NCBI GenBank assembly: GCA_022497155.1
Contig: MU385712.1
Span: 1 to 64,000 of the forward strand
Reading direction: 5' to 3'
Length of the DNA: 64,000 bases
Origin: Whalleya microplaca
Lineage: Eukaryota > Ascomycota > Sordariomycetes > Xylariales > Xylariaceae
Shown piece after piece: positions 7,814-37,316 of the stretch. Numbering within the stretch: the first letter of the stretch is position 1; the number at the start of each line of letters is the position of its first letter. The notes under the pieces were generated by a model. That model was not told the DNA's origin and did not search any database. It was given only the letters and a program-made list of their open reading frames with translations. The translations under genes were made by a program, and so were the position numbers.

Positions 7814-8040
7814 TGTCTTAGGATAGGGTATCGGGGTAAAGGAGGTGCCACTTTATGGCTTAACTGATCGGAAGTAATTAAGGCGATAAAATAAAAGAGT
7901 CACTTATAACAGCGATTAATCGAAAAAAGAGATATATTTATTATCGGCGATAAGGCTGTCTGAGCTATATATATTTTATCTAAAAGTAAAAAAAAAAAAC
8001 AAGCGATATATATATATTATAGTATACTAGCCCTATAATA
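7814..8040 (+). repeat. LTR, family 1, left copy
   Basis: A 227-bp sequence, TGTCTTAGGATAGGG... to ...AGCCCTATAATA, matching 3,345-3,571 reversed and 19,078-19,307 directly. It is preceded by atag, and atag also follows the right copy at 19,307. It therefore probably forms the left end of one degraded LTR retrotransposon about 11.5 kb long. Promoter-like and processing-like signals read better on the minus strand, so the element probably runs right to left. An AGGAAAGA purine tract on the minus strand abuts this copy, as a polypurine tract would. Confidence 0.7.
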
Positions 8041-11000
8041 TCTTTCCTAGATTTTGTTATAAATATTTTTATTATAAAAAAATCTAATTAATTAATACAA
8101 ACGTAAAAAATATTTACCTTATTTATTTTTTAAAAGCTTTCGCTTTAAACTTAACTGCCCTTTTTTTTTTATTTAGTTTTATATATTTTTTAATAAACTT
8201 ACGTCGTCTTATATGTTTTAATTAATTAGGCTTAGTAGAAAAAAAAGTTCTCTATCGATTAATAGTAGCTATACGTTTTTTATAATTTACCTAACTATTT
8301 TATCCTATAAGAAAAATAGGCTATAGTCGTTTTTCTAGCGTAATAAACTTATTTCTTATCTATTTATATAAAATATAAGCTTTTTTATTTCGATAAGTAG
8401 CTTTTTATCGTTCTCTTAAAAAAAGTTAATGTTAATCGAGATTTAAGAGACTTATATAAGCTTTATATAGTTTAAGCTAACGTCGGGATATCTTTTTTGT
8501 TTAAAATAAGCTAGAAGTAAAAATAAGCTTAAGTTTGGGTTCTTATTTTAATTTATTAAAGCTATCGGGTTAATTAATAACCTTATAAATTACTATTTAT
8601 TTTATTTTTATAATTCAGTTTTTTATTTCTTGTTTTTTGTTAATAAAATAAAGATTTTTATAAAAGCGAAAAAATATAATAGGGAAGCAAAAAAAGCGAA
8701 AAATCAAATAAGCTATTTAAAAGCTGTAATTAAACCTATCCTGTTATTATACCGTTTAAACAAATCTAATATAAATAAAAACTATATTATTTTATTAAAC
8801 CTAAACCTAATGTAATCGATTAAAAATAGCCCAAGTTTTCTTTTTATTACAAATATTTATAAAGTTAAATAAAAAAGTAATATAAGTTTTTACTAATATA
8901 ATAATTAAAAAAAAGTAAGGATTGCCTTTCTTTTTAACGTTAGTAGCTATAAAGTCGCGTAAATATATAAATGCCGTTAATATAAGAAACCGGGGGTTAT
9001 TTAAAACAATCCGAAAAAAAAATTAGTTGTTAATTTAGGTAATTTTTTAATTAAGTTTTATAGTAGTCCTAAAATAAACCTCCGTTTTAATAAATCCTTC
9101 CTTAAAAATAGCAATACTTATTTAAATTATAGCAGCCATAAAAGTAATATCGTAATATTAACGCCTATAATAAATAAAAAAAGCATTATATAAATTTAAT
9201 ACTCCATTTACTTTTTATTTATTTTTATTATAACTAGAAGGGGCGTTTCGATTAGAAGTAATTTTAAGTACTTTATCGCTTTTAACTAATAAAAAATTTA
9301 TTTCTAAGAAATCGATAATTTATTTAATTTCTTACCTTAAATACTATAGCCTATTTTTAGTCTAAAATTTAAATCCGTATATCTTAATAAAAAGGCCGCA
9401 AAATTAATTAATAATACAGAAATTAATATTAGCTGCTATAACGAACGTACCAAAATCTAAAAAAAAAAGCTACTTTTATAAAAACAAATTAATAAGTAAG
9501 ATTATTCTAGCCTTATATTCAGGGTTAAAATTAGCCGCAAACTTAATTTCAGCCTTATTTTTAAATGCAGCCTTAAACTTATTATTAGCTTTTAAAATAG
9601 GCTTAAAGTTTTTACAAGCCGCTTAATTAACTTTCTTATTTTTGTTCCAATTTTTATACCTATTTTTCCTTTTTTTAGGTAATTTTTTAAACTATAATAG
9701 CTATAATAACATTTTAATATATAAAAAATAAAATTTAAGGTATAATATTATAGCGATAAGTTAATATAAAACTATAAAAAAACTAAACTAATTAATTAAA
9801 AACAATAAAAAATAAAAAAAAAAGTTAACAAATAATTAGGTAAAAATTATTAATAAATTAATATAAAAAAAACTTTTCTACGCTAGGTTTTAATTTATAA
9901 CAAATAAAAGTAAATTAAAAAGTCCTTCCTATTTCTAATTAGTTATTTAAATTTATAATAAGCTAAATATTAAATATAATAAAATATTTAAATCGTTATT
10001 ACTAATTTTAAAAGTCGGCTTACTCGATTTAGCCTTAATACACTTTTTAAGCTACTTATTATACCCTTTATTTATTTTATCTTTATATTTTATACCCTTT
10101 TTTTCTTTTAATAATTATTAACTTAATTATTTATCCTTTATTTTTACTTTATAATATTTACTTAATTAATTATTTGCAATTATATTATAAAACTTATTAT
10201 TATATAAAAAACAGAAAAGAAAAAAAAAACTCCTTTTATTAGGCCTTTACGTAAGTCGTTTATTCCCTTTTTTTCTATAAAGGGTCTTATATTTAAAAGT
10301 TAAATCCCTTATTGTAATAACGTTAATCGAAAATTAAGTAACTTTAAACGTTTTTATCGGGTTATAATAGTTTGTTAAAATCTAATAAATATTTAAAATA
10401 AAACGCGTATTAGTAATCCTTCTTTTAAAACTCGTAAAACAAATATTAAACCCCCGCTATTTAATCGAGTTAAATCTTATTAAAATAACCCTAATTTCTG
10501 TAATCTTTTTTCTCGACTTTTTTATCCCGCTTTATTTTATTATCGCTTCCTTTTTAAAATAAGTAAATTAGCTATATAAATAGCTAAAAACTTTTATTAT
10601 TTCTTTTCTCCTATCGATTTATACCTTAATATTAAGCTCCTTTTATATCCTAAATCTATCGTTTTTAAGTAATCGAAAACTTTTAACTCGATAGTAAAAA
10701 ATATTAATTATATCCCTAATTCCTATTTTAGCATTAAACTTAGTCGCCTTAATTTAAAAATTAATAAAAATAAGCTGCTTTAATTCTGGAAAAATAATAT
10801 AAGCCGCTACTTTTTAAAAGCTAATATAACAAATAAGTTTATCCGAATAAGTTTTTTCCTTATTTAACGTATATAATTTCTGCTAATTAATATAAAATAA
10901 TTCGACTAATAAAAATTAAACTCTTTAATAGTTTTAAAGAAAGTCGGTATTATATTTAGGAATTTATAATTTCGAAATTCTATCGTAAAAATTAAATATA

Positions 11001-22596: not shown

Positions 22597-24670
22597 ATGC
22601 AGTACACGTATGATGACATCGGCACTAGAGACTCTTTTCGGATACTTCGACTACATGGCAGCAGTGACCACGAGTCCGCTATTCATTGTGATTTGGTTAA
22701 GAGATCACTATATGACCAAGAGCCTGCCTATGAAGCCTTGTCTTATTGTTGGGGTGGTCAGACTTTGAGTCAGACAGTATTCTGCAATGGACAGCGTCTT
22801 GGTGTGACTAAAAACTGCGAATCTGCCATGAGAAGATTTCGCCCAGTAGCTGATAACTCGAAGCGTTTTATATGGATTGATGCAATCTGCATTGACCAAT
22901 CAAACCCCGAGGAGAGAGGCCACCAAGTGCAAATCATGGGCGACATTTATAAAGGAGCTTTTCGAACCCTGGTATGGCTGGAAAACGAGAGTCCGCCGAT
23001 TGAACAAGCCAGGATACGAAGCCGCGAATTTCATGTTAAAAATATCTCTTGGCTGGTCAGACTCGCAGAAGCCACACTCCCTAGTGACTTCCACCAGAAA
23101 GAAACCCAACTTCTGCGAGTAGCAGAAGAGTTGAACGAGGGAGAAAATGATGTAACTGCTGCAAGTAAGTCAACTTGTCTCTTGCCTATACTTCACGTTT
23201 AAATTATTTTAAAATTATTGAACCTTGGCTGATTGATATCTAGGCATCAATGAAACTTTGGTTTGCTTGCCTTGGTTCAAAAGACTGTGGATTGTTCAGG
23301 AAGTGGTGCTTAGTAAAGAAGCAACTATGGTCTATGGTAAACAAGAAGTATCGGTACCTGCTATAATCGAGGTCAGAGAAATCCTCTCATCTATGAAGGA
23401 ACGGGGATACCATAGTGTTGGGGCCGCGATGGGTATTCTGTGGAATCTCTTCGGCATTCAAATCTTCGGGAAAAGGCTCTTGAAATCATCCCAAGCTGGT
23501 AGAGCACAGCTCGACAAAGCCCTAACCTCCTTTATCGGGGAAGTGAAATATTCAAAAGCCACGGACCCAAGAGACAAGGCGTTTGGGTTGTATGGTCTTC
23601 TGAGGGATTCTGGTATAGCGGTGCCAACACCGGATTACAACAAGCCCGTAGCTACGGTCTATCGGGAAACATTAGTTGCTATGATGGCCGCAACAAAAAG
23701 TCTCGATCTCATACGGCAGGTTGATGGCCTAGGATCGCTGCCAAGTCGATCGTCTTGGGTACCAGACTGGTCATCTTCAAGACATAGCATCGGACCAACT
23801 GCGGGTCCTTGTTATGCAGTAGAGAACTCACAGCCTCTTTTCCGCCTTTTGGAAGGTTCGTCGATGTTGGCCCTCAAAGGGTTTAAAGTCGATGAGATAA
23901 TTAGCCGCTCATCTTTATCATACATGCATATTGACGAACGGCTTGGGAAGCCAGAAGAATATACGCATTGGAACAGAAACTCTCCAATTCTGGATCAGGT
24001 TGTAATGCAGAAGCTCAAACAACAACCAGAGTATAGCGCTGCTATTCTTTTTCTCTGGAATGTCAAGGTTCTTCGCGACTTTGTGACATTTGCCCTGGGT
24101 ACAAACCTCTCTGCAGCAAGCAAGGAGTCTATACTTGCCCTTTACTGTGCCTTGTTGAGTCAACGAGGAGATTACAATAGTACTCCGGAGCTTGGCCTCG
24201 AAGATCTAGATGTTGGGGAGCGCCGAGCTCGAGATTTCTTTGCAGTGCTTCTTGACAATATCGTTGAAGATGAGCAGACAGAAACAGACGATGGTTGGAT
24301 TTTTGATCAGAGTTTTTCCCTTAGTGACTCTAAGGGGCGGGTGTTACTTGACATACAACATTCGCAGGAATACGCTATATTGCGACGCATTTCCCAGAAT
24401 CCCGTTCGAAGGTCAATTTTCGACTGCATTAGCAGAATACGGTATATGACTGTTTTCAAAACCAAGCTAGGTCGCATCGGCATCGCAACATGGCCTATCA
24501 AACCTGGAGATGAAATAGCGTTGTGTTCTGGCTTAGGGCTCCCAGTAGTGATGCGACGAAACGGAAGTAACTTCAAGCTCATTTCATGCGCATACGTCGA
24601 CAGTATTATGCACGGTGAGGCGTGGTCACACCATCAAGGACAGGAACTACGCGAACTAATATTTGTCTGA
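22597..24670 (+). CDS. Heterokaryon incompatibility (HET) domain protein
   Basis: Predicted 664-residue protein from two exons, 22,597-23,164 and 23,244-24,670. The 79-nt intron has a GTAAGT donor and a TAG acceptor and restores the frame exactly. The three blocks of the HET domain are present. They are AYEALSYCWGG (residues 44-54), FIWIDAICIDQ to IMGDIYKGA (91-121), and, just after the intron, WFKRLWIVQE (200-209). Downstream are the usual DPRDKAFGLYGL and SWVPDWS motifs and a C-terminal GDEIALCSGLGLPVVMR segment seen in many HET proteins. Members of this family trigger cell death when genetically different hyphae fuse, although most have no known partner. No NACHT or repeat domain is visible. 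It lies about 1.3 kb from the RIP-eroded block, a common position for fast-evolving genes. The frame is intact. Confidence 0.93.
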
Positions 24671-24920
24671 TGGGGATTTGGTTAAGGACCTTCGATATGA
24701 CATATGGTCAGCTCTCTACAAGATCCCAATGTCAAGTAGGCGATTTTCTAGGAGGGAGGCTAATAACTAATCCAGGGCTTGAAATCAGTTGAAATCCGCG
24801 CCCTTATATTTACACGAAATCACCACAATGTCACACTTCCCCTTTCTTTGCAAACATCAGTACATCGGTACATCATTACGATTATATCTATATAGAACCT
24901 ACGAAGTGCCCTTATATAAA
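24671..24920. other. Spacer after the HET gene
   Basis: A short gene-free stretch between the HET stop codon and the first unit of the GCGAGCAAGATCT array. A TATATAAA string ends immediately before the first motif. Nothing else is recognisable. Confidence 0.4.
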
Positions 24921-25690
24921 GCGAGCAAGATCTTAGTAACGCGATATAAATCACCGAGCAATATTGTAGCAAGCGCTTTTGTACTCTCAACCTGATATTA
25001 ACATTCACTATAACTTGCCTTGGGACAAATACTGATCAAAGCATCAGTAGGAACTACCAGCCGTTTGGTAGTAAAAGAAATGAGGTGAAAGTGTAAGTGC
25101 GAGCAAGATCTACGACAGTCTGATAAAAGTCACCGAGCAAGATCTTAACAATAGCTTCACTCTTTAAAATATATATTCACATTTTATAGCAGCCGTCTTT
25201 TGCCCGTGACATACTAAGATACGTCCGAAACTTAGCATTGACTTAATTATAGGTCCAGGAATAAATATTACAATTAATTGCGAGCAAGATCTACGGCGGG
25301 GTCATGTATATTAGCGAGCAAGATGTTAACACAGTATTATATGGTCTCAAATAGACATTGATATGTACTAGGAGACTTTTCAGACTGAATTTAAGTACAG
25401 TAGCTGCAGCGATTAATACCCGATTAGTAGCGGAAAGAAAGATTCGTATTGGAGTTTAGCAGCGAGCAACATCTACAACGGGCTCTTATAAATCAGCGAG
25501 CAACATCTCAGCAAGTAGTTTTACCATCCCAAATAGACAGTTACATTTACCCAGACTTATGATAGATCCGAATGTTTATGAAGACAACCTCATGATTCAA
25601 TATCGGCTTGGTTGTAAAAGAATTCTAGTTGGAAACTCTTCGCGAGCAAGATATACGTCCAGTCCATATAAGCCAGCGAGCAACATCTCC
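24921..25690 (+). repeat. Left array of paired GCGAGCAAGATCT motifs, ~180-bp period
   Basis: Five units, each with two copies of GCGAGCAAGATCT or a close variant. First copies start at 24,921, 25,099, 25,280, 25,462 and 25,642 (steps 178-182). Second copies start at 24,954, 25,133, 25,314, 25,496 and 25,676 (33-34 bp after the first). Between the two copies most units carry a TATAAA-like string. Outside the boxes the units have diverged strongly, so only the boxes and their spacing are conserved. The same motif in opposite orientation and with the same spacings forms an array at 31,313-32,330, on the far side of the divergent gene pair. Confidence 0.85.
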
Positions 25691-27099
25691 CGCGACCTCA
25701 CGAATTACGCTTTAAAGCCAGGCACCCTTCAACTACCTTGCAATTGTCATCGTTGATACGCGTACTCTTCCCATATCATCATACCGTGCTAGCTGCATCG
25801 CAAGGTTACCTCATTGAAACTCAGGGGTAATAGGGTTTGGAGTGACTTTTAGTTCAGCTATTCCAGAGTCGCGAACTGCCTGCTATACACAGTGCTACGA
25901 TGTGACCCATATCAACCCCTTGCCCTCAAACGAAGATACCCAGTTCACCCATCCCCTAAGCGGTACACGTGAACGGGGACGAATCTAAATGGCCCCATAT
26001 AGAATGCTAAACATACGTCTTGCTAGTCTTGGGGAATAGCTACGCCTCGCAATGCATCTCTGAGGTGTGACTGGAACCTCGATGCTACCTATACGACCCA
26101 GAGCATATGCGACTCTTACATATAGAATGACGTCGGTTGCCGCGTTCGACTATCTCCAGCATGCCATATCATCTCACAGTGGTAGCAACAATATCATAGA
26201 AGGAGCAAACTTCACTTGTCGCAATGAAACAAGATCGTTTGCTGCGGTTGGTGCCTCCTGAAATGCAGGATGTGTGCGACATGTTGCCCCCATCGTAGCG
26301 AATCTTTCCCCTGCGTGGAGTTTATGATATCCTGCCTCCGCAAACCGCTCCGGAGAGGGGAAAATGTTGGCCCCGTCTCTAGGCTGTACAATTGATGCCA
26401 CTGGTTTTCTTCGCTGATACAGCATCGCATTAGACAGTGGAATGTGGATATTTCACACTTGATATTACACTAGGCTTGTGTTCTCTGTAGATATCACCTG
26501 ACATTGTCAATATTGTACAAAGTAGTGAGGTGCATAGTGGTTTAATTAGTACAACGTGGAGGTCATGAAAGAGGCAGCAACCCCTTTTATATCTCGCCGA
26601 GTCTAAACGACCCGCATATCTACCACATACTCTGGCCAAAATAGTCACTGTATTTGCGCTACACTTATAATACTATCTGATATCCATGCTGGCTTGTGTT
26701 ACTTGTGGCTGAGGTGAGAATATGACGACAGTCGATGCAGGGCGACCTGTGAAACCTCTGATCGGCCAACTGCCTTTGCACGAGGAGGTGCTGCTCATTG
26801 ACACCCATGGGACACAGACGATGGCGACATGTGGGCTGTGGGGCGTATCCTGGCAAGCATTCGATTTAAACTTCAGCCTCAGATGAACAGTCCAATCAGA
26901 ACTAACCAGCTTGCCCGATACGGCAGCTCGCGTAAAAATACCCGAAGACCCACCCTCAATAGCGCCGGGTCCCCTACTACAAAGATCACCTGGTGGTACC
27001 TCCATAGTTCAAGTAGGCAACGTGGACTCACTGATTACATCGAGATCAAAGGTTCGTGATAAAAATGTATTAGGTAAAAGCACATGCTCACTATCCAAT
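25691..27099. other. Gene-free stretch between left array and minus-strand gene
   Basis: About 1.4 kb of ordinary composition. Several short overlapping open frames on both strands (up to about 110 codons) lack domain signatures and look like chance. The array motif does not recur here. It would contain the 3' end region of the minus-strand gene at 27,100. Confidence 0.4.
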
Positions 27100-28835
27100 C
27101 TACTCTACCTCGTCTTCTAGAGGATCTAACGCCCGGCCTGAATAATTGACTCTCAGGCCCAGCATTATCCCAGCCGCTCCAGCCGGCAGCCTCCGATCCC
27201 CGAAAAACGGGAGCGTTCGCCGAAGTGCCGAAGTCAGGGGCAGGTGCGGCAGATTCCGTGACCGATAGCTGTGGGTATAGTATGGCCTGTCCGCAAACTG
27301 AGCTCCCAAGCCTTCTCCCTCCAGCACGGAAGGAACGGCTTCGGGTCCGTCGTCCTTTAGCAGGTCTTCGGGCGCCGGAAGAGGGCATGACAGGGCATCT
27401 GGGATATTGATCCCATCACCGGCGGTAGACCCAGGGGATAGGATGTCTGCATCGGCCATCACTACGTCAGGGCCGCCATCATCATCATACTGGCCTGTGG
27501 TAGGGGAGTCGGACTCATCTTCTTGCGAAGCTGCGGGCTCATGTAGCCCGCGGCGCCGCATCTCAACGGTCCTCTCCTCAGCCAGATATAGGGCCTCGCG
27601 CAACATCCTGATGTCGCTTGAATCTTCGGGGAAGTCGGTCCTCTTGTGAGAAAAGAGCGCCAACGTATGCTCCACCCGCGGGAACCGGGGCCTCCCGCAC
27701 AGCTCGCACCCGTCGAAGGCCTTCTCCAGGTTATGCAGGTCCTCCGTTGTCACAGGATAAACCTCGAGGGGCTCTCCGCGCGTCCGGCTGGGTGGGGTCG
27801 AATCTCTGTACGCGAGCTTCTCCAGGTTCCGCATCACGTCGGAGTACCAGGGTATACCAAAGCCCTTGGCCCTCATCCTACCTCGCACCTTCTTGTGGAC
27901 TTGAGCGACGGAAAGCCTGAAGTCGGCTCGCTTCTCCAGTCCGGCCGCCATCATCTTCAAGAAGGCACAGTTGCTGTCTCCGCGCACGCCGAGGAAGGGA
28001 AACCGGCCATGGTCGTTAAGACGACAAGCCACGGCGTAGCGTATGAACAGGGCCAACAGATCCACGTCACGTCCGCAGGGGCCACCAAGAGCGACCGCAA
28101 GCAGCCTGTGACAGAACCTGCCGTGCCAGTTAGGGTTGGGTCTCTCCCTACCATCGATAGTGACGGTCTTCACGCCGTACACCAGACAGGTCTTGCGTCC
28201 CACTATGTCGGTCGGGGCGCATTGCAACACCTTGCATATCTTCTTCCACATGGGCACAAACTGGCTATTCTGTGCGGCCGCCGGTAGCCCTAGGCTCTTG
28301 ACGTACCGGTAGTAAGGGTCGTCGTTCAGACGTTGGACCAGATCTCGTTCGTCGGCCTTGCTCCATCTGTAATCGAACTCGACGTGCTTGATACGTCGCA
28401 CGTAGTCTTGAAGAGAACGGTGGGATTCCTGTTTCTCAATCCGGGCGTTTGTCTCCTCGGACAGCGAAAGCAAGGTCTCGGACACGTCTGTTATGACGGT
28501 GCGAAGTCTCTTACCTGCAAGAGTGGCTCCGAGGTTGTCGAAACTCTGGATTACCCGCTGCTTGTTGTCAGTACCGCTGCCGCGGCCCCCTCCAGTATCC
28601 TTTAATGCGAAAGGAACGTCGGATTCGTCTGTGAAGTCTTCATCGGATTCGACCGACCCATCCACTGTAAAGGGGTCCTGTTCCTCATCAAGGAACGGGT
28701 CCTCCTCGCTAGTGTTGGGGGCGTCCGCATCAGCTGGTGCTGAGCCAGTGGCGTGCTCAGAATCATCAGGGGGCTAGTAGCCTTTCTCTTTGTGCCCCTG
28801 GCAGCGTTGGTGGAACGAAGTACGCGATCGCTCAT
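27100..28835 (-). CDS. Uncharacterised acidic protein of the divergent pair; one frameshift near its 5' end
   Basis: A long minus-strand frame is open from 28,773 to the stop at 27,100 (about 557 codons) but has no ATG in its first ~170 codons. Another frame starts with a good ATG at 28,835 (MSDRVLRSTNAARGTKRK). It joins the long frame only if one base is gained or lost in the run of five C at 28,769-28,773. No GT-AG intron fits, so this is a frameshift or a base error. The protein would begin basic, then be very acidic (SEEDPFLDEEQDPF, SDEDFTDESD). The mid part is conserved-looking and rich in aromatic residues (NPNWHGRFCHRLLAVALGG). A CELC-x9-H-x6-H arrangement follows and could bind metal. 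I do not recognise the family. It is divergently paired with the gene at 29,298. Confidence 0.65.
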
Positions 28836-29297
28836 TTTGGAGGCTTGTTTTGTTGAGCGATTTGACGTGGTGAAAATATTACGAAAGGGAGCGGTGGGGT
28901 TGTGATGAAGGATGACAGAAAACCACTTTTTCCGGGAATACCTTTAAATAACGTGTTGCTGTTTATTAAACTTTTTATTATATATCTTCAAATCTATGCC
29001 ATAAATTAAGTAAAAATCTATTTATAAAATAAAGTTATAACTGAAAATTATATTATATTTACTATGAATAATAAAATTAAGAAAAAGTAAATAGTTAATA
29101 TATTACATTATTACTTAGGATCTCTCCTGTCACTGGGAAGTCACTTCTAAATCCTCTGTGACGCGTTACACAAACTACGTATCTCCTCCCCACGCGCACC
29201 AGAATACTCTCTTTCGCACAACACGCCACCATCACCACACCCAGCAATCAAGAACTTGCCCAACAACAACAACAAAAGGAAAAAGTTCACAATCACG
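28836..29297. promoter_or_regulatory. Shared intergenic promoter region of first divergent pair
   Basis: A 462-bp gap separates the two opposite start codons. About 160 bp in the middle (28,950-29,110) is markedly A/T-rich, with TATAT and AATAATAAAA strings. The part before the plus-strand ATG is C/A-rich (CAACAACAACAACAAAAGG), as is common for fungal 5' leaders. Shared control of both genes is an inference from the arrangement. Confidence 0.45.
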
Positions 29298-30092
29298 ATG
29301 GCGGCCAACCTCGACGAGACCCTCAGCGAGATCATCGATGGAGGCAAGGGCAACAAGCGCGGTCGCGCTGATACAGCTTCGTCTGCCGCCGTTGATGACG
29401 ATGGTAGCGGAGAGTATCAGGTGGCCAAGCGAGCCAAAACCGTCCCCACCGAGCTCGTCAAAGGCTCGGATGTGGGTTACATCCGACGTGGCGGCCGCGT
29501 TACGGCCACCTACAACATGAACGACCCAGCCAGCACTGACTGGGCTGCCGTTGGCCCCCGTGTCACTACAGGCATGGCCTCGAACGAGGAGAACCTCGAC
29601 GACGCCGTCGAGGGCTTTAAGGAGCGGGCCAAAGCCGCCAATAATGGCTCGGTCGGTCTCGTTGCCTTTTCGCTCGCCTCGGTGAATCCGCTCGCGCATC
29701 GTCGACGTGCGCGCATGGCGGGGGAGCGTATCGCGGCCCAACCGAATTGGGCCCAGGGTGCTTCCCTTCGTGGTAATGCTCCTGCCCTTCCTCCTGTGGT
29801 TCCCGCCCATGAAACTCCTACCACTACCACTCCTGCTTCTACCATTCCTGCTGCCACTCCTGCCCCCGCTCCACAGCCCCAGGGGAAGAAGAACAATAGA
29901 AGGGGAAGGAAGAACAAAGGGAAGGGCAATGCCGGTGGCGGTTCAGGGTCTGACGTGGCCATTGCGGACATCGATGCTATCTGGAAGAAGGATAGCAAGC
30001 TGCGCACAGCATCAGAAGAAGCGGCGCTCCTCTCCTCCTTGGATGCCGAGATGGACGACTTCATGGCCAAGTCGGATGCACCTCCGGCCTAA
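29298..30092 (+). CDS. ALY/REF (Yra1)-like protein with N- and C-terminal helicase-binding motifs, no RRM
   Basis: Predicted 264-residue, intron-less, low-complexity protein. The start is the ATG in CACGATGGCG, since the frame upstream lacks ATG. The N-terminus MAANLDETLSEIIDGG followed by a basic KRGR has the form of the UAP56/Sub2-binding motif that opens ALY/REF mRNA-export adaptors. The C-terminus SLDAEMDDFMAK matches the second such motif. In between are a bipartite basic stretch (KRGR...KRAK), a Pro/Thr/Ala-rich linker and an RG/RK-rich patch (KKNNRRGRKNKGKGN). A recognisable RRM, normal in ALY proteins, is missing. Nuclear RNA export or remodelling is therefore likely by motif, but unproven. 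It is divergent from the acidic-protein gene and lies between the two inverted motif arrays, which is an unexpected setting for a housekeeping export factor. Confidence 0.6.
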   Translation: MAANLDETLSEIIDGGKGNKRGRADTASSAAVDDDGSGEYQVAKRAKTVPTELVKGSDVGYIRRGGRVTATYNMNDPASTDWAAVGPRVTTGMASNEENLDDAVEGFKERAKAANNGSVGLVAFSLASVNPLAHRRRARMAGERIAAQPNWAQGASLRGNAPALPPVVPAHETPTTTTPASTIPAATPAPAPQPQGKKNNRRGRKNKGKGNAGGGSGSDVAIADIDAIWKKDSKLRTASEEAALLSSLDAEMDDFMAKSDAPPA

Positions 30093-31312
30093 AGGGTCAC
30101 CTTAATGAGGTGATATTTGGCTTTTTTGCTGTGTGTACGTGCTTCCTGGGACTGCATGACCTTCTAATCTACCTGTCTTCATCCGGGGCGATGACAGGAG
30201 ATTGGCCCCGTATTCGTTCCTGGCTTGGACATGCCATCCTTGAAAGAATAGGGGTTTTTTATCAAGTAAGCACCTTTGTATATAGGAATTAAATCAATCC
30301 TATTGTGTGTAATAGTTTTTTCCGGCGATGCTGTGATTGTGACTAACTTGTTAACGTGAAATCTGCTGGCCGGCTCCCGCAGTCGTAGACTCGTAGACAT
30401 TTTTAGGGCACTGGAATTGCTTCGCCATTTTCAGTACTTTGGGACTACCACGATACTTTGCTATTCCACGACCACTTAAAGCCGCCTTAGACTGACGCAA
30501 TAACTACTCTATGACTTTGAAGTTTAACATGTAGAATGCACGCCCGTTAATTATCGTGAAACCTGAGGTCTAGTGGATCTTAAGTCTATTTCAAAATTTT
30601 AGTTACAAGGTCGCATTAAAACTAGCATAATCCATAAAATGCCGGTAGACAAACAACAAACTGTGATCGCTAATCAAGATAAGCTTGTCGACTTCTGGGT
30701 GTATCCATAGAACATAGAATGTCTATGCCGCACATGGCTATTATTAAAGAAGAGCTAATGTATCGCTAGTCATATAATATCCTCCGCTCCCACTAGAACT
30801 CAACTCATTACCCACCACTAGTATATCGACTAGGATATGTCGGGAGAGCAGCTAGAGATATACTAGAGTCAATTCCACTTGTTACCCTACGGCCGCTATA
30901 GACATGCCACGTAGGCAGTATCGTGATATAGCCGCCGGGAGCAATGCGACAATGTAACATCGTCGATAAGGCGAAACATAATCACGGTCTGCTTGGCATA
31001 TTATACTATAACCGATAGTGCGAGTCATAAAGTTATTACAATCTCCGCCATCGGGCCCTTTCGCCTAGGATAACGTTACACTCGGTGTGAGATTTCTTAC
31101 TTCGTAGTCCACCCAATGTCGTGGCCAGCTAGGCCAGCATAAAGAACCAATGAAAAGTAGCTCCGTGCCTCAATCCCACGGTTAATAATAATGGCTTATA
31201 CATATAATCTCGGTCATAACGCTTAACTGTATAACATACCATAAGAGATAGGGGCCAAAAGGTTTGAAAAGCCAGGTAGCGTTATTATAAAACCCGATTG
31301 CGTTAGTCAAGG
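30093..31312. other. Gene-free stretch between ALY-like gene and right array
   Basis: About 1.2 kb of moderate composition without a convincing open frame. It is the counterpart of the 1.4 kb gap on the left side, so the gene pair sits nearly centrally between the two arrays. No transposon signature was seen. Confidence 0.4.
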
Positions 31313-32330
31313 AGATCTTGCTCGCTCGTTGGTATGAGTCGCAGGATAATGTTGCTCGCTGGTTCATACACCGCAATCGTTATGCTCGCTAGATAATATA
31401 AACCCTACAATGATGATACTGCTCGCTGCCTAGTGAAGGGTATCAGGTAAGATTACCAGCCAGTTAATCTAAAGCTTATAATTATCTTGCTAGCTCATAT
31501 ATATAAGTTCACCCTATATCTTGCTCGCACTTCACCGCTGCTCATATAAACTTACAACCGGCTTTGAACAATTGTTAGGCTCCTTAATATTGATCAGGAA
31601 ACGAGATATGTGACTAAAGTGTATCATAGAACGTTCATTTACGGCAACATAGCAGTCTGAGATCTTGCTCGCTAGTTTATATGAGCCTACCAAAGACCTT
31701 GCTCGTGCATTATATGTTCGCTGTCTAGAGTTATCTGCAATATAAGATGATCATCTAAGAATCTCTGCAATGCTTGCTTCTGGTAGCTACATACAGGCCT
31801 ACGTCGATCTGTATAAAGAGTATCTTAATGTTCGTTCGGTCTCACTGACCGAAACATCACTGGGTGTATGCCTCGTTACGCCGGCCCTGCTCCATGACCG
31901 AACATTGCTCTGAATGATCACCACATATGTTACTTAGCCAACAAAGCTGTACAAAAAGAAGAAGAAAACCACTAGGCTCAAAGCAGCGGTGTTTTTCCAT
32001 CCGACTTTTATCTTTGGCGAGTGTTGTCTTAGGGAAGATGTTACTCGCTATTTCTTATGCCAATTGCGATAATCTTGCTTGCTATATGATTTAGTGATTG
32101 TAACGTAATAAAAGATTATCATACTGACATACAATAACGTAAATAGAGTCAGCCACAGATGATTAAGACGAGTATACATGACAGAACTTAAAATATACCT
32201 ACTTGGCTTGTATGCAAGTCTTGCTCGCTAGAATATATGGCAATCACTGACATCTTGCTCGCCAATATATATAGCGGTTACAGACATCTTGCTCGCCGGT
32301 AGATGTGCGGGTTACAGATATCTTGCTCGC
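31313..32330 (-). repeat. Right array of paired motifs (AGATCTTGCTCGC), inverted relative to left array
   Basis: TTGCTCGC cores, some with one change, start at 31,318, 31,352, 31,382, 31,419, 31,487, 31,521, 31,665, 31,699, 32,041, 32,075, 32,221, 32,255, 32,289 and 32,323. Pairs are exactly 34 bp apart at six places, and unit starts are about 169-188 bp apart. One unit is missing near 31,845, where a stretch with TTCGGTCTCACTGACCGAA occurs. The last unit is doubled to four copies at 34-bp steps. A TATATAA-like string again lies between paired motifs when read on the minus strand. The array mirrors the one at 24,921-25,690. Confidence 0.85.
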
Positions 32331-32674
32331 TGCCATAAGACAACCATATTCACTTTATTTCTTTACATGATAAGTTATATAGAGCTACATGCAGACCTGT
32401 ATAGCCACCTCCACTTAAACGTTATATCATAGCACCATAATTACTGGTCCCGCACGCTACTCAAGAAGGACTCATATTACTTGCCTCATAACTATAGGAT
32501 AGAGGTCAGTATATATTATGCGAAAAGCTGAATACGTATGCTAAGCCCTGACTCAATGGAACCTTGTTGTCTTGTGGATGTCACTGGCGCCCTGGAACCT
32601 CATAGTTGTAACAGGTGGTCTAGCGCGGGAACCAGCTGTACCATCACCCATTAGTTCCTGACCATCCTGGTTTC
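32331..32674. other. Spacer between right array and TIR element
   Basis: About 340 bp of normal composition, without an open frame or recognisable signal, up to the left terminal inverted repeat at 32,675. Confidence 0.35.
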
Positions 32675-33359
32675 ATACCATGGATCCCGACCATTCGGGA
32701 CACCCTAGGTGCCGGGACCGCAAAAATCAGCGATCATCATATAAAACCCTCCACTTTTACTTACACATTTCTTAGCCATAATTTAATATAATAAAACGAG
32801 AGTTTTTATAGCTTTAAATAATTATATAAATATTAATATATATTTTTTCTAAATTTTTTTAAGTAACGGAAAGTAATTAATTAAAACTATTAATAAGATA
32901 TTTTTTCGCGTATATATCGTTTTTCCACTTACTTTAATTTTAACCCTAGATATTTTAATATTATAAACCCCGATTATAATACCCTTTTATATAAATATAA
33001 ATATAGCTATAACTGTTATAAATATTTAAAAAAATAATTTATTAGTTTATATATTAAGTTAAAAATAAGGTATTTTATAATCGACCTTTTTTATATGTAT
33101 TTATAGCAAAATATCAGCAACTAAATTTAATTATAACAATTATTTTATAAAATAATAAAAAAAACGGCTTATTAAATAGATTTTTAATTAAAAAATATTA
33201 AGTTATGCTTTTTTATATTTAAATATACGTATTATTATATATTATTACGGGGTATACGCCTATAAAAGACAGGGCTTAAGATTTAGCTATATTATTAGTA
33301 AAATTATTAACATGGGGAAAAAAGGAAAAAAAAAAGCAAGCCTAATAAGGCCTGTTAAA

Positions 33360-35822: not shown

Positions 35823-36962
35823 CTATGTATTCACAACCCCCATCATCTTCTGATACTTGAGTTCCCAGTCGTTGGGCCTCTTGGGGACTTCTGGAGCCAG
35901 ACGGTGGAGCCTGCTGGCCGGCTTGGTCATCTGCCTATCGTTCGCCAAGGAGTAGTACACCATGTACGAGGTGCCAGGCGTGCCGAACTTCCAGTCGTCC
36001 AGCTGCCAGGCAAAGTCGGCCGGGCCACTTGTTTTGGGTCCGTCGACCATGTACGTTCGGATCAAGTCGTGCTTCTGCTCATCGTCTCTGAGGCGGACGA
36101 CGGCTATCACGCTGTAGAGCGACTCCTGGAATCGGCTCAGCTTGACGTCCTTTCCTGGGGCGCTTGTACAGGTCAGCACCGCTCCGTTGATCCTGATAGT
36201 ACGAATATGGTTGAAGGTCGGGGGTTTGTAGGCCGGGTCGCTGTCCTTGGGGACCTGGCAGAGGACCCGGATGACAGCTGGCTCGTTGAATTGGTAGTAG
36301 TACCGCCTATTGTCCCCTCGAGACGTGAAACAGCCGAATTTAGCGCTGATGAAGCCGCCCAGGTTGCCACGGCAGTTCCATGTAACCAGGCTGCTTCTCG
36401 CCCATTCGCTCGGCGGCGGCGGGTGTGTCACGATGCTCCACGTCTCGGGCCTGTCCAGCGGCTGCGAGAGAACCGGCTGGCGGTACAGCTGGAAGGGGCG
36501 GCGCTTCCACAGCGTCTCGAGCATGATGTCGCTCTCGGTGAGCGCTCTGAAGGCCATGCCGGTGGTGGCTGCGGGATAGCCGTCCTGCAGGAAGGCGTCA
36601 ACGATATCGTGGCGTATGATATTCTGCATTTGTCTGCAGACTTCGGTATCCGCCAGATCGGCCCAGGCAAGTAAGAGGAGCGGGAAGCGCGCCTCGTCCC
36701 TTCTGATCTCATCAAGGTCGTCAGGGATGGGCTCTCCCTCCTCTGGCTCCATGCCTCGGTACTCCTCTTTTAGCTGAAGGTAGGCTTGGCGGATAACCAC
36801 GGTCAAGACATCCAAGCCGTTCATATCACGCACAGCGTGCTTCCTAACCTCGATGTCCAGCTCAGAATACGTTGCGGGATACTGGTACGCTAGTAGTACA
36901 TCTTGATTGAGGTAATGCTGGTTTCGGACATCGGCCAAGTTGGGGCGTTCGTTAGAAGCCAT
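35823..36962 (-). CDS. Uncharacterised 379-residue protein of second divergent pair
   Basis: Intron-less frame starting at the ATG of MASNERPNLADVRNQ (the frame extends further upstream but has no ATG). It is rich in charged and aromatic residues, with no signal peptide or membrane segment. A short acidic Pro-containing segment (EPEEGEPIPDDLDE) lies in the first third. The C-terminal third has alternating strands ending YSVIAVVRLRDDEQ and GTPGTSYMVYYSL, which loosely recalls the C-terminal fold of ubiquitin-specific proteases, but no catalytic Cys/His boxes can be assigned. I do not recognise the family. Its partner on the other strand is the broken helicase gene. Head-to-head layout, normal composition and lack of introns are shared with the pair at 27,100-30,092, which suggests a common origin. 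Confidence 0.65.
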   Translation of the reverse strand: MASNERPNLADVRNQHYLNQDVLLAYQYPATYSELDIEVRKHAVRDMNGLDVLTVVIRQAYLQLKEEYRGMEPEEGEPIPDDLDEIRRDEARFPLLLLAWADLADTEVCRQMQNIIRHDIVDAFLQDGYPAATTGMAFRALTESDIMLETLWKRRPFQLYRQPVLSQPLDRPETWSIVTHPPPPSEWARSSLVTWNCRGNLGGFISAKFGCFTSRGDNRRYYYQFNEPAVIRVLCQVPKDSDPAYKPPTFNHIRTIRINGAVLTCTSAPGKDVKLSRFQESLYSVIAVVRLRDDEQKHDLIRTYMVDGPKTSGPADFAWQLDDWKFGTPGTSYMVYYSLANDRQMTKPASRLHRLAPEVPKRPNDWELKYQKMMGVVNT

Positions 36963-37316
36963 CGCGTTGTCGTCGTGGTTGCCTGTGTCGAAGGTGGGGA
37001 TGGTCACGATTCTGTCCACGTAGTCAACTTTTGCCCAGGCGAAGTAAATCAACAGAGCGTAGAAACGGAGAGGAATGATCAATGAACTTATTTGGAAAGA
37101 ATCAGAACCAAGATACGATAGAATATTTGCTTTTACTGGATTATGTACGTGAATAGAATATAATATAGAAATTTGGTTCTACTACTTCACCTGGCCCTCA
37201 GCTGAATTGCGTAGACCGAGATATTTTTTTCTATGGCAGAGGAACCAGCATTGAACTTGGCTCCTGCCTCCACCCAACACACTCGCCACGACCAACAACA
37301 ACAGCCTAGTTCCAAG
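36963..37316. promoter_or_regulatory. Shared intergenic region of second divergent pair
   Basis: 354 bp between opposite start codons. The middle is A/T-rich, and a C/A-rich leader (CACGACCAACAACAACAG) precedes the plus-strand ATG, much like the leader before 29,298. A bidirectional promoter is inferred from the layout. Confidence 0.4.

Follow-up and report, generated by a model that had tools for sequence, protein, structure and literature searches.

In the yeast 2-micron element two proteins, Rep1 and Rep2, and the tandemly repeated STB locus with which they interact are all borne by the element itself (PMC3610928), the maize Ab10 drive system combines Kindr with knob180 and Trkin with TR-1, repeats of ~180 and 350 bp, each the target of the protein from its own linked gene (PMC11675298), and the mat2/3 inverted-repeat (IR) boundary elements of Schizosaccharomyces pombe are inverted, hold five TFIIIC B-boxes and flank a defined domain (PMC4502379). 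Here we analyzed a window of 64 kb from the fungus Whalleya microplaca (GenBank assembly GCA_022497155.1; the first 64 kb of contig MU385712.1, called C3 in the following and 1.55 Mb long, in a genome of 48.1 Mb on 114 contigs). In it two oppositely oriented arrays of a 13-bp box, GCGAGCAAGATCT, bracket a divergent gene pair, and we compared this locus with a second one of the same genome on contig C28, where the stretch 541,000-577,138 (~36 kb, except base 551,000) was covered.

With Rep1/Rep2-STB the locus shares two proteins and an iterated site in one element, and an iterated site that is private to its unit and lies beside its genes was found at both loci. Unlike the 2-micron element the locus is chromosomal and has a 34/147-bp layout; kinship was judged only from the Pfam, NCBIfam and PDB searches, all of them null. 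The likeness to maize Ab10 lies in two repeats that each have their own linked gene, whereas there the proteins are mutually non-homologous kinesins and the repeats occur genome-wide; no motor domain was matched here. Both systems show that segregation can involve proteins which act on the repeats of the element or haplotype they belong to; they are functional parallels and not relatives.

The S. pombe IR elements resemble our locus in being inverted elements with multiple copies of a protein-binding box around a domain, and they are the closest known analogue of the barrier explanation weighed below. Here, however, the box is a different one, the C28 array is one-sided and the B-box is not enriched: the consensus GTTCGANNC is found 0 times in both C3 arrays and twice in the C28 array, where ~2 are expected. 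No gene pair is known to be tied to the S. pombe elements. CENP-B-box satellites have a nucleosome-length unit and keep a protein-binding box amid diverging sequence, and a nucleosome-length unit with a conserved box is what our arrays have in common with them, whereas the boxes here are paired, locus-private and located beside a gene pair. The CENP-B core pattern is absent from the C3 arrays and occurs once in the C28 array against 0.12 expected. A literature search for the layout of paired-box array and gene pair, in which subscription papers were thinly covered, found no description of it among the top-ranked papers.

Gene pairs and paired-box arrays on C3 and C28

The features of both loci are as follows (ORF, open reading frame).

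C3, 24921..25688, + strand: left array, 10 boxes of GCGAGCAAGATCT (1 weak) in 5 pairs, 33-34 bp inside a pair and 145-148 bp between box 2 and the box 1 that follows
C3, 27100..28665, - strand: gene 1, 521 codons when read from its first GTG (the open frame as a whole has 557), paralogue at C28:555,546-557,375 (stop not counted)
C3, 28836..29297, no strand: AT-rich spacer between the divergent starts, 34.6% GC
C3, 29298..30092, + strand: gene 2, 264 amino acids, no family match
C3, 31313..32330, - strand: right array, 14 boxes (1 weak), 34-bp units in runs and pairs, orientation opposite to the left array
C28, within 559,800-577,138, both strands in blocks: array of diverged repeats whose box is AAAGGCAGCGGGC, from 2.5 kb past gene 1 to 1-2 kb short of the telomere

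The original prediction, made from the letters of the window alone, had placed the C3 arrays correctly, with + boxes at 24,921-25,688 and - boxes at 31,313-32,330, and their opposite orientations were confirmed; allowing ≤3 mismatches GCGAGCAAGATCT has 31 matches in the window against a shuffle mean of 10.63, and none of 100 shuffles reached 31. Inside the arrays lie 22 of the 31 matches (9 left, all +, and 13 right, all -), the remaining 9 being at about chance level, and all five exact copies in the window are within the arrays. The boxes form same-strand pairs 34 bp apart. Counting two weak boxes at 24,954 (9/13 letters) and 31,389 (8/13 letters), neighbouring boxes follow each other at 33, 145, 34, 147, 34, 148, 34, 146 and 34 bp in the left array and 34, 34, 34, 146, 34, 342, 34, 144, 34, 68, 37, 30 and 34 bp in the right one. 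Pairs recurring every ~180 bp, as first proposed, are thus a property of the left array, where the step of 178-182 bp is indeed near a nucleosome repeat, but not strictly of the right array, which contains 34-bp runs (4 boxes at 32,216-32,330 and ~4 at 31,313-31,426) and one 342-bp step empty of boxes. The C3 unit is a 34-bp step used at least twice, with most clusters separated by roughly the length of a nucleosome core (144-148 bp).

The bracketed divergent pair was confirmed as ORFs, and gene 1 additionally by its paralogue. The nearest ATG upstream of gene 1 (28,835) is in a different frame from the 521-codon ORF, and for 28665-28835 (-) a small intron, a shift of frame and a start at another site are all possible. 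Neither gene 1 nor gene 2 gave a significant match in Pfam, NCBIfam or PDB. In the genome a single paralogue of gene 1 was detected, located on C28 and 36% identical over 274 residues (E 3e-41), and the reciprocal search with it returns gene 1, the next match having E 0.63; this third candidate, on C17, was rejected as a relative. The common core of the two proteins includes runs of invariant positions such as PTDIVG and IPWxSDVMRxLE. An ORF of 252 amino acids adjoins the C28 paralogue and is divergent from it. The paralogue found no significant match in Pfam and PDB, nor did its partner in Pfam, and gene 2 and the C28 partner each match only themselves genome-wide.

Beside this second pair, and on one side of it only, lies an array of ~16 kb on a contig that ends in a telomere, which is a new finding beyond the first observation. 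Its box AAAGGCAGCGGGC occurs 31 times with ≤2 mismatches in 559,800-577,138 compared with 0 in 541,000-559,800 (18.8 kb), and 51 times compared with 3 when ≤3 mismatches are allowed. There are 22 same-strand pairs with a spacing of 31-35 bp (15 at 33, 6 at 32 and 1 at 31 bp), whereas 20 shuffles yielded 0.3 on average and never more than 1. The remaining same-strand distances of up to 400 bp, measured between boxes that match in at least 10 letters, occupy 6-55, 118-206 and 296-386 bp, and minor peaks stand at 310, 342 and 375. The boxes are oriented in blocks (+ at 559.9-560.4, - at 561.5-565.7, + at 566.8-573.5 and - at 574.5-575.9 kb, with isolated exceptions), so that the orientation switches at ~561, 566 and 574 kb. 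The units of this array are 60-79% similar, which indicates an origin by tandem duplication.

Both detected members of the gene-1 family (2/2) therefore have a same-strand paired-box array within 1.2-2.5 kb. The two loci agree in having gene 1 with a divergent partner, same-strand pairs of 13-bp boxes with a spacing of 32-34 bp (34 bp on C3 and for the most part 32-33 bp on C28) and steps on the scale of a nucleosome, whereas the box itself (GCGAGCAAGATCT or AAAGGCAGCGGGC), the two- or one-sided position of the array and its orientation differ. Inverted arrays around the genes had been the layout first noted, and since the C28 array is one-sided and changes its orientation in blocks, the feature that the loci share is the gene pair with a private paired-box array and not the inverted bracketing.

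Several further observations concern the C28 locus. Units of 300-318 bp at C28:562.5-564.1 kb (L024:1460-3074) have few recognisable boxes and keep other words, for example AAAGTCACTAT, and therefore the array may hold further conserved elements. The array region by the telomere has 52% GC, while the 1.5 kb inside the telomeres of C18 and C21 (L057, L068) are AT-rich with a value of 13-15%. Direct repeats around the C28 pair (L023:2009-2141 and 7952-8084, that is C28:553,009 and 558,952) were considered as ends of an element and discarded, as they belong to a dispersed repeat of ~130 bp with at least 41 genome matches including these two, the others being 79-85% identical. On the side without the array a 14-bp tandem repeat stands beside the pair (L023:2463-2514, C28:553,463).

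Conservation and privacy of the boxes

For the comparison of identities we used the 5 left pairs and 7 chosen right pairs, three of which overlap. Among the left pairs the pairwise identity is 94% for box 1, 45% for the spacer, 63% for box 2 (a figure pulled down by the single 33-bp pair) and 30-32% for the flanks; the right pairs give 81, 46, 83 and 28-29%, and left compared with right 86, 40, 73 and 27-28%. The TATA string, which had been described as kept inside each pair, is present in 8 of the 12 C3 spacers (5 left and 7 right pairs), and TATA-like strings also occur near the boxes on C28. Thus the boxes stand out from nearly random flanks as first noted, but the TATA element is less constant. 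As the paired boxes are retained while their flanks randomise, the comparison argues for boxes that are bound.

The left intervals are weakly similar to each other (6 comparisons, z 1.2-7.0, five of the six ≥2.9), and therefore tandem duplication is probably how the left units arose. Between left and right the 131-135-bp intervals are retained without clear similarity in sequence, 7 of 8 comparisons having |z| ≤1.5 and one 3.6. The original prediction had set selection or protein binding against simple tandem duplication; the constraint on boxes and spacing does exceed that on the flanks, but duplication probably took part in forming the left array. Constancy of the interval length, taken alone, favours constraint in a manner that is only suggestive.

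Each box is private to its own locus as far as examined. In the proposed genome-wide search for the motif pair, the pattern CGAGCAAN{25,29}CGAGCAA has 13 matches, 10 of them at the C3 locus, with 2 for the reversed-pattern control, and all four genome matches of a stricter pattern are at this locus. The corresponding pattern for C28 matches 9 times, 7 times at the C28 locus (reversed control 2). BLAST of the genome with either C3 array returned only the self-match, and with 5 kb of the C28 array 6 matches including self, all on C28; pattern and BLAST searches may miss diverged copies that lack recognisable boxes. Exchanging the boxes (≤2 mismatches), that of C3 occurs once across the 36 kb of C28, and that of C28 has one site within the C3 island and another at window positions 36-64 kb. 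An ordinary dispersed satellite, present at many loci that lack the genes, is what the original prediction had named as contrary to it, and such a satellite was not found by these genome-wide searches, from which diverged boxes could escape.

Setting of the loci and alternative explanations

The C3 locus is surrounded by AT-rich blocks (~7-27% GC in 1-kb windows), whose TpA/ApT ratio of 1.28-1.39 is the signature of repeat-induced point mutation (RIP), and these RIP-like blocks lie on both sides of the arrays, up to ~21.3 kb and from 32.8 kb on. TTAGGG telomeres are present in the genome, and together with the AT-rich blocks and a HET-domain gene they point to a filamentous ascomycete. Between the left array and its AT-rich block, adjoining the outer edge of the array, lies this gene:

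C3, 22597-24670, + strand: two ORFs of a HET-domain gene, the first matching PF06985 with E 6.8e-27

Beyond the AT-rich block on the other side is an ORF of 419 amino acids (35823-37082, -) without a match in Pfam. A tRNA search and an Rfam search of the window gave no match, and pattern scans of IMG/VR matched 28 and 5 stretches, none of which was confirmed.

This setting makes a chromatin barrier conceivable, in which the arrays bind host proteins and stop heterochromatin, that of the AT-rich blocks on C3 and of the telomere on C28, from reaching the gene pair, in the manner of the inverted repeats with bound TFIIIC in the mating-type region of S. pombe. The C3 arrays do separate the pair from the RIP-like blocks to its left and right, and the C28 array stands between pair and telomere with an inner side (541.0-559.8 kb) of 0 or 3 sites at ≤2 or ≤3 mismatches. 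But the boxes differ between the loci, so a single host factor would be insufficient, the TFIIIC B-box, Reb1 and TTAGGG consensus words are unenriched in the arrays, the HET-domain gene lies outside the left array on the side of the AT-rich block, and ~16 kb is long for a barrier; we thus consider this explanation somewhat unlikely. Rather less credible to us is that two unrelated nucleosome-length satellites came to lie near the paralogues by chance and have since decayed, the boxes being a remnant of the latest common unit or a product of biased gene conversion. Subtelomeres often carry satellites, and the residual similarity of the left units together with that of the C28 units speaks for tandem duplication at both loci. 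Such decay would explain the origin of the arrays but not the retention of box and spacing: between the C3 arrays the boxes are 86 and 73% identical against 27-28% for the flanks, and the C3 spacing is held within a few bp. A chance presence of arrays at both gene-1 loci also seems unlikely. The controls belong to a screen that is blind to the box and comprise 22 loci of ~3 kb from other searches (a non-random set with two loci on C28, of which one overlaps the array), two telomere ends, which flood the screen with repeats of their own, and other tiles of the window; this is a small set of controls. In its 31-36-bp column the C3 array tiles score 18 and 34, and just 3 of the 22 control loci exceed 1, namely L019 (10), which contains a run of AGCGAGCA units, L037 (8), whose repeats are AT-rich, and L042 (4), which overlaps the C28 array. 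L037 had been considered as a possible third array and was dismissed as AT-rich noise. The C28 array tiles, however, score 0-10, against 10 and 8 for L019 and L037, which is in favour of the satellite explanation.

A mobile element of ~7.4 kb with the arrays as subterminal binding sites of a transposase or replication protein was the leading idea of the original prediction, and the opposite orientation and bracket layout on C3 as well as two genes of no known family would suit it. It was not supported by the comparison of the outer flanks (24,501-24,930 with 32,321-32,800, 430 and 480 bp), which was limited to exact matches: no inverted match exceeds 11 bp, the longest being the box itself, and no direct match reaches 10 bp, so terminal inverted repeats or a target-site duplication were not seen among these matches. 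Moreover, arrays and gene 2 were found once and gene 1 has only the 36% paralogue, neither Pfam nor NCBIfam gave a transposase-like match, and with an array on C28 that is one-sided and switches orientation the reading as transposon ends is unsupported; we regard it as very improbable. At least as hard to accept is that TATA and box form small promoters of short non-coding RNAs handled by gene 2. TATA-like strings near the boxes of both loci agree with it, and so would the ends of gene 2, whose putative export-adaptor-like motif no search confirmed. On the other hand no RNA family was matched in the window, a third of the C3 spacers lack the TATA string and the orientation alternates on C28. 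Pfam identified no RNA recognition motif (RRM) in gene 2, and the comparison of its terminal peptides with PDB gave no REF match, the query being perhaps too short. ALYREF has an RRM and binds UAP56 via N- and C-terminal motifs (PMC12823420).

A proposed two-gene module and its array

The explanation that we prefer, with a probability of roughly 40%, is a module of two genes whose private array of paired binding sites is read by a protein of the locus and sets up nucleosome-phased chromatin. The locus would be a self-contained unit made of a back-to-back gene pair of unknown family and its own array of paired putative binding sites. A protein from the pair, most likely that of gene 1, would bind the box pairs with their spacing of 32-34 bp cooperatively, and sites about one nucleosome length apart would phase nucleosomes and thereby create a distinct chromatin domain beside the genes. 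Such a domain might keep the pair active amid heterochromatin-rich surroundings, or it might aid the retention and transmission of the unit. The binding of the boxes, the locus-encoded reader and the function of the domain are inferred. The two loci use different boxes in the same format, which argues for a locus-specific reader, since from a host factor common to both a single box would be expected. Gene 1 would be the natural candidate for this reader.

A number of points weigh against the module. Neither gene 1 nor the C28 paralogue has a recognised DNA-binding domain, the best Pfam match being HTH_26 with E 0.097, below the cut-off, and AlphaFold models made with no alignment were too poor for use (mean pLDDT, the predicted local distance difference test, 36 and 45). 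Homology of gene 2 and the C28 partner is not demonstrable by BLASTP (E 0.25), and while shuffle tests favour it in global alignment (0/300), they do not in local alignment (15/300). The C3 spacer between the starts has 0 boxes with ≤2 mismatches and one 3-mismatch site (29,244), and the C28 stretch between the divergent starts has no boxes; as boxes are nearly absent there, it is unlikely that the array is a simple operator for the gene pair, and a role in chromatin or segregation fits better. In a crude drift model, which depends on its assumptions, the constancy of the 4 left intervals would arise with p = 0.4-25% even if there were no constraint. The steps on C28 are far looser than those on C3, and in the box-blind screen the C28 array is not distinguished from control loci, so this array is established by box-specific counts only, with a box chosen from that very locus. 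Finally, the comparison comprises only two loci in one genome, and other arrays were sought by box pattern and a small control set.

In a wider sense the two loci could represent two specificities of one family and a new class of chromosomal genetic elements in fungi, a divergent two-gene cassette with a private paired-box satellite whose reader and box co-diverge and of which each copy marks and maintains, or drives, its own chromosome region; this extension is tentative and we consider it doubtful. The paralogous gene pair together with a paired-box array with nucleosome-scale steps provides a signature with which other fungal genomes can be searched. Should one of the two genes encode the reader, nature would offer here a series of DNA-binding proteins, each with a private satellite to match, in which satellite and reader co-evolve, and this would bear on how satellites originate, how they are recognised and whether they are selfish.

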